Shown here piece by piece: positions 57,693 to 60,554 of a stretch of DNA of 60,554 bases (within the stretch, counting starts at the first letter, position 1; the number at the start of each line of letters is the position of its first letter). Origin of the DNA: Burkholderiales bacterium (lineage in GTDB: Bacteria; Pseudomonadota; Gammaproteobacteria; Burkholderiales; Burkholderiaceae_C). The notes below the pieces were generated by a model. That model searched no databases, was not told the DNA's origin, and worked only from the letters and a program-made list of their open reading frames with translations. The DNA lies in the NCBI GenBank assembly GCA_025360385.1, contig JANYCG010000217.1, positions 1-60,554 on the forward strand, given 5' to 3'. Made by a program: the position numbers and the translations under genes.

Positions 57693-58652
57693 TCAGGCTG
57701 CCAACGCGGCCTGAAGTTCCGCTGCGCACAGACGCACAGCCGCGTTCGCCTCAGTCATGACGCGGCCCATGGTGATGAAACCGTGGATCTGGCGCTCAAA
57801 ACACACGTAACTCGTCTTGACGCCGCTAGTTGCGAGCTTGTCGGCGTACAGATGCCCTTCGTCGCGCAGCGGATCGAAGCCGGCGGTCAGCACCAAGGCG
57901 GGCGGCAAGTCTTTGTGGCTGACCGCCAGCAAAGGCGAGGCGCGCCAGTCGTCGTGTACAGCGGCGTTTTGGCCGGTGTAATGGCCCTGGAAGTAGGCCA
58001 TAGTGGCCTGCTCCAGCATGTAGCCTTTGCCGTTGGTGGCGATGGACGGCGTGAGCTGGCGCATGTCCACCGCCGGATAAATAAGCAACTGGAAGCGAAT
58101 GGCCAAATCGCCTGCGCCGTTTTCCGTTGAATCACGCACAAGCAGGGCGATCACTGCCGCCAGGTTGCCGCCTGCACTGTCGCCGCCCACGGCGATGCGG
58201 GCGGGGTCGATGCGCAGGGCAGCGGCATTGGCATGCACCCAGCGGGTGGCGGCCAGACAGTCGTCCACCGCAGCGGGGAACACCGCCTCGGGGGCCAGGC
58301 GGTAGTGCACGGCGATGATGGCGCAACCCGAGGCATTGGCCAGCTGGCGGCACAACACATCGTGGGTGTCCAGGTCGCCGATCACCCACCCGCCACCGTG
58401 GAAGTACACCAGCACAGGCAGCACTTGCCCGGCCTCACTGCCGGCGGGCCGGTAGTGGCGCAGCGGCACCGCGCCTGCGGGTCCGGTCGCAGCAATGTCT
58501 TGCGCCAGGGCCACCGGCGGCGGCTCCGGCTGCGTGACAGCGCGGCGCTCCACGAACATCTGGCGGGCCTGCACGGCTGCCAAGGTGTGCGCGGGCGGAA
58601 TGCCGCGCTGGGCCATTAAATCAAGTAGAAACCGGGCTTCAGGGTGCAACAT
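57693..58652 (-). CDS. Hormone-sensitive-lipase-family alpha/beta hydrolase
   Basis: A 319-residue esterase of family IV. The oxyanion motif HGGGWVIGD is near residue 85, the nucleophile elbow GGDSAGGNLAAV near residue 155, the Asp in TAGFDPLRDEG near 255, and the His in ERQIHGFITM. It is cytoplasmic and likely acts on short acyl esters. Dispersed repeat copy 11 sits 4 nt upstream of its start codon, so the repeat overlaps the promoter or leader. Confidence 0.93.
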   Translation of the reverse strand: MLHPEARFLLDLMAQRGIPPAHTLAAVQARQMFVERRAVTQPEPPPVALAQDIAATGPAGAVPLRHYRPAGSEAGQVLPVLVYFHGGGWVIGDLDTHDVLCRQLANASGCAIIAVHYRLAPEAVFPAAVDDCLAATRWVHANAAALRIDPARIAVGGDSAGGNLAAVIALLVRDSTENGAGDLAIRFQLLIYPAVDMRQLTPSIATNGKGYMLEQATMAYFQGHYTGQNAAVHDDWRASPLLAVSHKDLPPALVLTAGFDPLRDEGHLYADKLATSGVKTSYVCFERQIHGFITMGRVMTEANAAVRLCAAELQAALAA

Positions 58653-58656
58653 ATTT

Positions 58657-58700
58657 ACTACCTTTTTTATAGCTAACTATTCATATCCCACAGGAAAAAA
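58657..58700 (+). repeat. Dispersed AT-rich repeat, copy 11
   Basis: ACTACCTTTTTTATAGCTAA, then CACAGGAAAAAACG; the AGG core begins 35 nt from the start. The AGCTAACTATTCATAT centre matches consensus well, though the 3' end (GGAAAAA) has diverged. It lies between the 5' end of the hydrolase and the 3' end of aroG. Confidence 0.8.
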
Positions 58701-58799
58701 CGAAACTTTGACTAGGCGACTCGACAACAAACGGCCTTCAGGCGCCCCAACCAAGCACTGCGGCCACCCCAACTGCCGCTTAAGTGGGCCGTCCCCAGT

Positions 58800-59951
58800 C
58801 TACAACCCGCGCCGTGTTTTGACCGCCCCGCTCAGCACATCCAGCACCTTGAGCGAATCCTCCCAGCCCAGGCACGCATCCGTGATGCTTTTGCCATATT
58901 CCAGTTGCGCAGCGTCGTCCTGGCCCGGGGTGAATTTTTGCGCCCCACCCACCAGATGGCTTTCAACCATCACGCCAAAGACGCTGTTTGAGCCGCCTTT
59001 GACCTGCTCTGCGATGTCCCGCGCCACGTCGATTTGCCGCTCATGCTGTTTGCTGCTGTTGGCGTGGCTGCAATCGACCATCAAGGTCGCCGGCAATTTG
59101 GCTTGTGTCAATCCAGCGCAGGCTGCCGCCACACTCGCCGCGTCGTAATTGGGCGTTTTGCCGCCGCGCAAAATCACGTGGCAGTCCTTGTTGCCATGGG
59201 TCTGCACAATCGCGACCTGGCCGTTTTTGTGGACTGACAAAAAGTGGTGCCCGCCAGCCGCAGCCTGAATCGCGTCCGTGGCAATCTTGATGTTGCCATC
59301 GGTGCCGTTTTTGAAGCCGATGGGCGCCGACAAACCCGAGGCCAGTTCACGGTGCACCTGGCTTTCGGTCGTGCGCGCGCCAATCGCGCCCCAGGCAATC
59401 AGGTCGCCCAGGTATTGCGGCGAGATCACGTCCAGAAATTCACTCCCCGCCGGCAGGCCCAGGCGGTTGATGTCGATCAGCAACTGGCGGGCGATGCGCA
59501 GGCCCTCGTCAATGCGGAAGGTTTCATCCAGATACGGGTCGTTGATCAGCCCTTTCCAGCCCACCGTGGAGCGCGGCTTCTCGAAGTAGACACGCATCAC
59601 GATCTCCAACGTGCCAGCATATTTGTCGCGCTGCACCTTGAGCTTGCGTGCGTACGCCAGCGCGGCCGCCGGATCATGGATCGAACATGGGCCGATCACC
59701 ACCAGCATGCGGTCATCCTTGCCCGCCATGATGTCCTTGATGTGGTGACGGGTCTCGCTGATCAGGCCTTCCACCGGCGTGCCACTGATCGGAAAAAACC
59801 GGATCAAATGTTCAGGTGGCGGCAACACGGTGATGTCCTTGATGCGTTCATCGTCAGTGCGGCTGGTGCGGTCGCTGACGTGCGGCTGGCGGCGCACAAG
59901 CGGGTTGGCATGCCAGGCACCTTCGGAGGTTGGGGAATGCTGTGGGTTCAT
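58800..59951 (-). CDS. aroG: 3-Deoxy-7-phosphoheptulonate synthase (DAHP synthase, AroG type)
   Basis: First enzyme of the shikimate pathway, condensing PEP and erythrose 4-phosphate. The 383 residues form a class I DAHP synthase: MLVVIGPCSIHDP near residue 85, FEKPRSTVGWKGLINDP, SVHKNGQVAIVQTHGNKDCH, and MVDCSHANSSKQ. It is preceded on the same strand by an aromatic-residue leader peptide and an intrinsic terminator. It is therefore probably attenuated by Phe/Tyr/Trp-tRNA charging in addition to allosteric feedback. Confidence 0.96.
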   Translation of the reverse strand: MNPQHSPTSEGAWHANPLVRRQPHVSDRTSRTDDERIKDITVLPPPEHLIRFFPISGTPVEGLISETRHHIKDIMAGKDDRMLVVIGPCSIHDPAAALAYARKLKVQRDKYAGTLEIVMRVYFEKPRSTVGWKGLINDPYLDETFRIDEGLRIARQLLIDINRLGLPAGSEFLDVISPQYLGDLIAWGAIGARTTESQVHRELASGLSAPIGFKNGTDGNIKIATDAIQAAAGGHHFLSVHKNGQVAIVQTHGNKDCHVILRGGKTPNYDAASVAAACAGLTQAKLPATLMVDCSHANSSKQHERQIDVARDIAEQVKGGSNSVFGVMVESHLVGGAQKFTPGQDDAAQLEYGKSITDACLGWEDSLKVLDVLSGAVKTRRGL

Positions 59952-59986
59952 GCTGCGGCTCCTTCAGGTTGGATCAATGAAAATGG

Positions 59987-60016
59987 CAAAAAAAAACCGC
60001 CGAAAGTTCGGCGGTT
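59987..60016 (-). terminator. Attenuator terminator before aroG
   Basis: On the minus strand AACCGCCGAA pairs with TTCGGCGGTT (10-bp arms around CT) and is followed by a run of eight or more T. It lies 36 nt before the aroG start and 25 nt after the leader-peptide stop. The upstream GGCGGTT (within 60061-60070) can pair with the AACCGCC arm as an antiterminator. Confidence 0.9.
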
Positions 60017-60040
60017 GGTGTGGAGACTGGCTGGGCTTTT

Positions 60041-60118
60041 TCAGCGACGCTCAATTCTCTCAACCGCCTGGGGGCGTGAGATCCAAAAGTAGCTAAAGAA
60101 AAAGCACAAGCGAGTCAT
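60041..60118 (-). CDS. aroG leader peptide (aromatic attenuator)
   Basis: A 25-residue open frame beginning MTRLCFFFSYFWISRP. Seven of residues 6-12 are Phe, Phe, Phe, Ser, Tyr, Phe, Trp. It ends 25 nt before an intrinsic terminator that precedes aroG. Stalling at the aromatic codons would cover CGCC just downstream (in CACGCCCCC). That frees GGCGGTT to pair with the terminator's first arm. The ribosome-binding site is weak (TAAAG). Confidence 0.85.
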   Translation of the reverse strand: MTRLCFFFSYFWISRPQAVERIERR

Positions 60119-60311
60119 GGGTTGACTTTAGCACAAGCGCCAAAGCCACTGCGCTCACCACTTCGCTCACAAAAGCCAATGCGCTCTTGAGTGAATCCAT
60201 TTGCGCACGTCAGACCAAACACCCACAACCGTGATGCACAGGACGGCCCATTCATCCGTGCTGCCTCGGCTGCTGGCGCACCCTATTCAGGCGCACAACG
60301 ATCAAGCGCGT

Positions 60312-60554
60312 TCAGGCCGTTCCACCCACCGTCAAGCCATCAATTCGCAGCGTCGGCTGGCCTACACCCACGGGCACGCTTTGGCCTTCTTTGCCACAGG
60401 TGCCCACGCCGCCGTCGAGCTTCATGTCGTTGCCTATCATGCTCACTTTTTTGAGGCATTCCGGGCCGCTGCCGACCAGGGTGGCACCTTTCACCGGGTA
60501 CAAGATTTTGCCGTTCTCCACCCAATAGGCCTCGCTGGCCGAGAAGACAAACTT
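60312..60554 (-). CDS. tldD: Metalloprotease TldD (partial, C-terminal end)
   Basis: The last 80 residues of TldD, part of the TldD/TldE zinc protease that processes microcin/CcdA-type substrates. The conserved C-terminus is clear: [39 protein letters not shown], and [14 protein letters not shown]. The 5' part lies beyond the right edge. The 190-nt gap to the aroG leader should hold the aroG promoter. It also contains a 12-bp tandem pair (GTGAGCGAAGTG GTGAGCGCAGTG on the minus strand, near 60148-60173). Confidence 0.95.

Follow-up and report, generated by a model that had tools for sequence, protein, structure and literature searches.

A probable leader-peptide transcription attenuator upstream of aroG in Burkholderiales

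Organization of the aroG locus

The window, i.e. the whole 60,554-nucleotide stretch of Burkholderiales DNA that was analyzed, carries a type I DAHP synthase gene, aroG, on its minus strand. Between aroG and the end of the upstream gene tldD lie a short reading frame rich in aromatic codons and an intrinsic terminator. The features of this region are given below from upstream to downstream.

60312-60554, minus strand: end of the upstream tldD, on the same strand as aroG
60125..60133, minus strand: extended -10 element TGCTAAAGT, with 6 nt between its end and the leader ATG
60041..60118, minus strand: leader peptide ORF MTRLCFFFSYFWISRPQAVERIERR, 25 codons from ATG, then TGA, without a Shine-Dalgarno sequence
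60083..60103, minus strand: aromatic codon run F-F-F-S-Y-F-W, inside the leader ORF
60089-60091, minus strand: Tyr codon, codon 6 upstream of GGCGG (-6)
60086-60088, minus strand: Phe codon, codon 5 upstream of GGCGG (-5)
60083-60085, minus strand: Trp codon, codon 4 upstream of GGCGG (-4)
60058..60081, minus strand: protector hairpin TCTCACGCC / GGCGGTTGAGA, present in the minimum free energy structure of the window's ribosome-free leader RNA
60061..60068, minus strand: antiterminator 5' strand (segment B) GGCGGTTG, within the leader ORF and including a repeat of the 3' arm of the terminator
60010..60017, minus strand: antiterminator 3' strand (segment C) CAACCGCC, common to the terminator's 5' arm
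59988..60016, minus strand: intrinsic terminator with a 9-bp stem, a 4-nt loop and a T run
59959..59964, minus strand: aroG Shine-Dalgarno sequence AAGGAG (read from the sequence)
58800..59951, minus strand: aroG, type I DAHP synthase, 383 amino acids (TIGR00034, 524.7 bits, and PF00793)

The 25-codon ORF with an FFFSYFW run that a first-pass annotation had placed upstream of aroG was confirmed at 60118..60041 of the minus strand. The same annotation described a perfect intrinsic terminator with a 10-bp stem. The terminator is indeed present before aroG; however, its stem comprises 9 bp, because a 10-bp stem would leave a 2-nt loop. The stem region, 60016..59995, reads AACCGCCGA-ACTT-TCGGCGGTT and is followed by 7 more T. 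When the window was searched for ORFs of 10–60 codons with at least six Phe, Trp or Tyr residues in 8 codons, a cut-off chosen after the leader ORF was known, the leader ORF alone was returned, and 10 first-order Markov sequences as long as the window contained none. The 161-nt leader region folds with a z score of -3.07, and the leader RNA from the ATG to the T run with a z score of -4.53. Comparison of positions 58500-60554 with Rfam 15 yielded four matches with E values up to 5, all below the gathering score, and identity with a known Rfam element was rejected. Downstream of aroG, positions 57693-58652 of the minus strand encode a hormone-sensitive-lipase-like esterase (NCBIfam LipP1, 372 bits).

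AroG is the sole DAHP synthase detected in the genome (TIGR00034), the assembly of which consists of 337 contigs and is 98.28% complete. No type II DAHP synthase (PF01474) was found in this assembly either. A second PF00793 match in the genome was rejected as a second DAHP synthase; it looks like what we take to be KdsA, beside a presumed CTP synthase. The highest-scoring solved relatives of AroG are Phe-sensitive DAHP synthases. Two AroG matches are present in many of the listed genomes of the window's family.

Conservation, distribution and start of the leader

Loci for comparison were chosen on AroG protein similarity alone. The 110 loci comprise 80 that are the best of at least 591 AroG matches in genome contigs, 29 that are the best matches among the 246 family genomes having one, and the window's own copy; because all are best AroG matches, the sample is weighted toward close AroG relatives. 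The aromatic run and the terminator were sought in these relatives and both are kept in 94 of the 110 loci, where an aromatic ORF and then a CCGCC..GGCGG-T terminator lie ahead of aroG. The family loci among the best matches have both in 29 of 29 cases. In L024 the ORF was set by hand, since its best stretch of 10 has 4 aromatic residues and the cut-off was 5; in L044 the terminator was admitted under a slightly looser T-run pattern. The 94 rows include one duplicate, which leaves 93 distinct rows, 88 of them with an exact GGCGG. Typical leaders are MTSAKFYFAYFWFSSATGGREIFA (Polaromonas), MSAKFYFYFFWHLKPLADREG (Caballeronia), MFARHFFTAYFYFSNSNPKAVE (Janthinobacterium) and MILTSTRYYFWFYGYPMPLAEVGARS (Dyella). 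The leader of L024 (Comamonadaceae bacterium 2PF) has drifted to MRTTVRYHFWHFHIQHLTGAGVANA, which is His-rich besides being aromatic, with the terminator and the extended -10 element kept; this leader may respond to a different amino acid mix.

The element is absent from 16 of the 110 AroG-selected loci. These are L005, whose upstream sequence is lost at a contig end, three Polynucleobacter loci (L030, L033 and L034) together with a similar contig (L070), two Cupriavidus loci (L037 and L041), and L048, L050, L051, L053, L055, L072, L075, L077 and L081. Two of the Polynucleobacter loci and the similar contig (L030, L033 and L070) have no leader, yet a tldD-like coding end was recognized by eye upstream. 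In the same three loci a TAAAAT box lies just ahead of a possible aroG start, and because the box adjoins the start, aroG itself may be leaderless there.

A covariance model searched against the window's own genome recovered its own element with an E value of 1.3e-14, followed by a match with E = 0.685. The latter was rejected as a second copy, as no AroG was found in its locus by tblastn; its neighbors are presumably ribosomal protein S20 and argD. Across the order, 65 of 250 genomes match the model at E ≤0.01 in a search that used filters that lose weak matches. AroG lies downstream in 30 of the 30 best order-wide loci, the window included. Across the class, 14 of 321 genomes match, three of them in the window's family, and four matches outside the order have AroG downstream (L143-L146). 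Spread beyond AroG was rejected, the candidates being seven weak class matches (L147-L153, E ≥3.5e-4) without AroG in the locus.

Forty AroG upstream regions from 29 other families were also inspected. They were picked from the AroG matches listed (195 of the 250 genomes had one), and where a genome has multiple AroG genes the copy inspected may not be the regulated one. Outside the window's GTDB family, nine of these 40 regions scored with an aromatic ORF and a terminator, and eight look genuine; L172 was rejected as the ninth, its stem lying inside the ORF. Within the window's family the element is usual; elsewhere its occurrence is patchy. In L172 and L191, from two genomes of GTDB family f28, aroG is preceded by another kind of aromatic frame (RGAFVFYWPLFWQ and LGAFCFYWHLFWN), and the usual terminator does not follow it. 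These frames are possibly leaders that were independently built or that do not act through a terminator.

The 30 nt that precede the leader ATG contain the motif TGnTAnAnT in 67 of the 93 distinct loci, 66 of them with a gap of 6–9 nt to the ATG, compared with 3 of 2770 background windows; the motif was derived from the same sequences in which it was counted. A simple scan did not find a full sigma-70 promoter in the window, and no -35 box was recognized. GGAG, GAGG or AGGA at -18 to -4 of the leader ATG is found in 0 of the 93 distinct loci, and a looser set of Shine-Dalgarno motifs flagged one leader, L069. Ahead of aroG, a different and more permissive Shine-Dalgarno-plus-start pattern is present in 80 of the 93 loci. 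Since the extended -10 element ends 6–9 nt before the ATG in 66 loci, transcripts there are predicted to start at or beside the AUG, and this spacing points to a probably leaderless mRNA in these loci, most of which are Comamonadaceae-like. Among the remaining 26 loci, L046 and L108 have a -10-like box equally far from the ATG, seven show nothing clear, and 17 Burkholderia- or Oxalobacteraceae-type leaders have TATAAA or TATAGT 25–47 nt upstream instead. With the -10-like box at that distance, the latter leaders should have a 5' UTR. Shine-Dalgarno motifs are also missing in these leaders.

Codon geometry and alternative RNA pairings

The terminator's 3' arm has GGCGG as its core, and the leader ORF carries a further copy of this motif in 89 of the 94 loci; the five leaders without an exact copy hold near variants (L003, L024, L084, L090 and L094). 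The distance from GGCGG to the terminator's CCGCC is 38–59 nt. In the 89 leaders it is read in frame 0 in 49, in frame 2 in 39 and in frame 1 in 1, and is translated, for example, as Gly-Gly, Ala-Val or Leu-Ala. Codon -5 from GGCGG is aromatic in 89 of 89 leaders (Phe 66, Trp 21, Tyr 2) and codon -6 in 88 of 89 (Tyr 49, Phe 37, Trp 2). Counted from the ATG, no position is aromatic in more than 93% of the 88 distinct rows; the aromatic residues are more constant relative to GGCGG than relative to the ATG. Order-level leaders with an exact GGCGG that were not used to derive the rule, all of which had been picked for an aromatic ORF, are aromatic at -5/-6 in 7 of 7 cases. L155 carries GGCGA, not GGCGG, and was left out of this test.

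Three competing pairings, a protector, an antiterminator and a terminator, had been noted in the first-pass annotation. All three exist, and the antiterminator pairing survives lineage changes. The protector pairing CGCC/GGCG belongs to a longer hairpin, TCTCACGCC/GGCGGTTGAGA (60081..60058). The antiterminator of the window joins GGCGGTTG (60068..60061) to CAACCGCC (60017..60010) over 8 bp. Covariation was counted on alignment A1, which has 93 rows. The B:C antiterminator has 86.8% of its cells paired and 18 both-side changes, which 0 of 500 shuffles reach, and slid controls have 17.8–62.5% of cells paired and at most 7 both-side cells. The number of B:C pairs with a both-side change is 2, which is not unusual (353 of 500 shuffles), and the signal comes mostly from one column pair (C-G 60, U-A 14, U-G 5, A-U 2, unpaired 12 of 93). 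The C-side column of this pair covaries in turn with the terminator's 3' arm, segment D (G-C 69, A-U 20, U-A 2, unpaired 2). In the outer helix of the protector, 86.6% of the A1 cells are paired, with 12 both-side changes and 0 of 500 shuffles reaching that. A control slid by +2 has 16 both-side changes and thus exceeds the protector, so that the support for the protector is pairing, not covariation.

The RNA of the window, folded up to segment C without a ribosome, forms the protector and a helix between the 5' part of the ORF and the B-C interval, and no antiterminator (probability 0.003). RNA that lacks the first 12 codons folds into the antiterminator at -23.8 kcal/mol (z -3.46) while the protector strand is still present, and the antiterminator is unchanged when that strand is removed as well. 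Removal of B leads to formation of the terminator. The protector hairpin alone has an energy of -9.7 kcal/mol. Because the protector loses to the antiterminator at equilibrium when the 5' part of the ORF is gone, it would act only by forming first, a kinetic effect, or together with the helix of the ORF 5' part.

Ribosome positions were simulated on 88 transcripts, each folded as far as the C arm while the stretch that a ribosome was assumed to cover was kept open; this footprint ran from ~18 nt ahead of the first base of the A-site codon to 12 nt beyond it. The mean antiterminator probability over the 88 rows is 0.41 with no ribosome. With the A site at -10, -7, -6 and -5 it is 0.88, 0.96, 0.978 and 0.975, respectively, and closer to B it falls to 0.91 at -4, 0.603 at -3, 0.057 at -2 and 0 on B. 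Either -5 or -6 lies within 0.02 of the row's best probability in 85 of 88 rows. The upstream side is shallow: the probability is at least 0.9 at both -5 and -10 in 67 of 88 rows, and more than 0.1 is lost by -10 in only 15. In the window, an A site anywhere from the second codon to Ile-13 gives a probability of 1.00. Since the folding drops off sharply only downstream, -5/-6 are about the last stall codons that leave B free, and the modeled preference for them over earlier codons is weak at equilibrium. The stop codon of the window's leader is 8 codons past B, and a ribosome placed there leaves B free (0.97; mean 0.31 over the 88 rows). The off state must therefore rest on timing, and RNA polymerase should reach D while the ribosome still covers B.

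All 88 distinct rows have Phe at -5/-6, compared with 51 that have Tyr and 23 that have Trp there. Over the wider span from -4 to -7, 82 of the 88 rows include Tyr and 68 include Trp, and anywhere in the leader Phe is found in 88, Tyr in 87 and Trp in 73, with no Trp codon in 15. Burkholderiales leaders typically have 5–8 aromatic residues within ten, often including Trp. Judged from these codons, Phe appears to be the common signal and Tyr a near-universal one, while Trp appears lineage-dependent and dispensable. The earlier suggestion that all three aromatic amino acids may be sensed is thus borne out only in part: Phe codons are universal and Tyr codons nearly so, but 15 of 88 leaders have no Trp codon. 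TTT accounts for 64% of the Phe codons in leaders (267/415) versus 18% in aroG bodies (134/748). The third base is A or T in 33% of the non-aromatic leader codons versus 15% of all aroG body codons; since the non-aromatic codons are A/T-rich too, part of the TTT excess is regional composition.

Proposed mechanism, alternatives and related systems

With the anatomy, conservation, alternative pairings and last-codon geometry described above, the element is very probably a ribosome-mediated transcription attenuator of aroG of the classical leader-peptide type. The first-pass proposal of a leader-peptide attenuator upstream of aroG is thereby supported, by conservation in 94 of 110 loci and by mutually exclusive pairings. 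We infer the start site, translation, stalling, termination and amino-acid response to be as follows. Transcription would begin at or beside the leader ATG. An undelayed ribosome would cover segment B, C would pair with D, and RNA polymerase would halt before aroG. Low charged tRNA-Phe (probably also tRNA-Tyr, and tRNA-Trp in many species) would stall the ribosome in the aromatic run, with its footprint ending just short of B. Segment B, left free, would then pair with C, so that no terminator forms and aroG is transcribed.

The terminator might merely end transcription of tldD, the last part of which (60312-60554) precedes it on the minus strand, with the aromatic ORF a chance frame. This is scarcely credible given that the ORF is unique in the window, that 94 of 110 loci keep it with little variation in its distance to the terminator, that the extended -10 element directly precedes the leader ATG in 66 of 93 loci, and that the terminator arm is copied within the ORF. 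The ORF might instead encode a functional small membrane-like peptide rather than regulate aroG, and its sequence is indeed conserved and its middle hydrophobic. However, the part that follows the aromatic run is read in varying frames relative to the RNA element (GGCGG in 49, 39 and 1 leaders), the aromatic residues track GGCGG better than the ATG, AroG lies downstream in 30 of the 30 best model matches, and the peptide has no Pfam or NCBIfam match, all of which makes this account very unlikely. A hydrophobic aromatic peptide ahead of a terminator would also be compatible with a TnaC-like device, which stalls because the nascent chain detects a free amino acid inside the ribosome tunnel and not because charged tRNA is lacking. 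Arrest peptides generally require specific residues, whereas Phe, Trp and Tyr interchange at -5 (66, 21 and 2) and the surroundings vary. In addition, induction by the amino acid would have the wrong sign for a biosynthetic gene, and we consider a TnaC-like device highly improbable.

Within the charged-tRNA attenuator, the preferred reading, the amino acids that count may be fewer than the codons present. In a narrower version the element is a phenylalanine attenuator, in which only uncharged tRNA-Phe counts and codons for Tyr and Trp are tolerated without contributing, and we give it nearly an even chance. It is consistent with the occurrence at -5/-6 of Phe in 88 of 88 rows versus 51 for Tyr and 23 for Trp, with the 15 of 88 leaders without Trp, and with the Phe sensitivity of the best-scoring solved relatives of the enzyme. 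The C. glutamicum aroR leader (Phe-Tyr-Phe) reportedly answers Phe, not Tyr, limitation (PMC11802643). However, tolerance would predict fewer Tyr and Trp codons than the leaders contain (in 87 and 73 of 88, respectively). Moreover, as no second DAHP synthase was detected, sensing of all end products would make sense here, an argument that matters less in the family genomes with two AroG matches. In the broader reading the element is a leaderless, order-wide sensor, in which a shortage of any of Phe, Tyr and Trp stalls the ribosome in the same few codons, and the residue in each slot shifts by lineage while the distance of the slot from the RNA element is fixed. We offer this reading tentatively, as somewhat less likely than not. 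If it holds, a single switch on the first step of the shikimate pathway would read three end products and would fill in Burkholderiales the role that TyrR and TrpR have for the E. coli isoenzymes.

The enterobacterial pheA (pheL) and trp (trpL) attenuators combine cognate codons with a protector, an antiterminator and a terminator. The Burkholderiales element appears to share this logic, and differs in the gene and in its mixed aromatic codons. In E. coli, aroF and aroH are controlled by TyrR and TrpR, which are reported to be conserved among many gammaproteobacteria but missing from other classes (PMC5343134). The closest precedent is the aroR-aroF attenuator of C. glutamicum (Neshat et al. 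2014, as cited in PMC11802643; predicted in PMC4046766), where the AroR leader contains Phe-Tyr-Phe, Phe limitation reportedly raises transcription and Tyr availability has no effect (PMC11802643 and PMC4046766). Both systems have a leader with Phe and Tyr codons before a DAHP synthase gene. Unlike the actinobacterial attenuator, the Burkholderiales element has a GGCGG-based switch and often Trp, and the likeness that we claim is functional. The Vibrio aroA-tyrA operon, with predicted attenuators (Merino database, PMC1173090 Table 7), is also a DAHP synthase operon and differs in being gammaproteobacterial. That table, of attenuators linked to tyrA, contains no betaproteobacterial aroG entry, and the main text of a genome-wide attenuator screen (PMC2965389) contains no DAHP, heptulosonate or phosphate aldolase. 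No account of a leader peptide or attenuator ahead of aroG in betaproteobacteria was found in the full texts searched, among which subscription papers are few, so that absence is not proof. The element is probably a new, widely conserved and hitherto undescribed member of the classical leader-peptide attenuators.

As such it is a likely regulator of the shikimate entry step in a large order that includes Burkholderia, Variovorax, Acidovorax, Janthinobacterium and their relatives, for whose aroG regulation no described mechanism was found in the texts searched. It presents a measurable rule, as aromatic codons are kept most strictly at set positions relative to the antiterminator strand. Its leader ORFs, without a Shine-Dalgarno sequence, are likely to be overlooked by gene finders. 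The probable leaderless start would provide a compact test of ribosome loading on a nascent RNA end in time for termination, and the element could potentially be used for engineering the production of aromatic compounds in these hosts.

The distinctive points of the element are its mixed aromatic codons and its likely leaderless start. Sinorhizobium meliloti trpL (rnTrpL) is a leaderless attenuator whose transcript starts at the ATG; it differs in reading Trp only and in its gene, trpE, and trans functions have been shown for S. meliloti (PMC7298713). The mycobacterial poly-Cys attenuators, described as leaderless in the title of Canestrari et al. 2020 (referenced in PMC9031893), are likewise leaderless short ORFs, and differ in reading cysteine and in belonging to actinobacteria.
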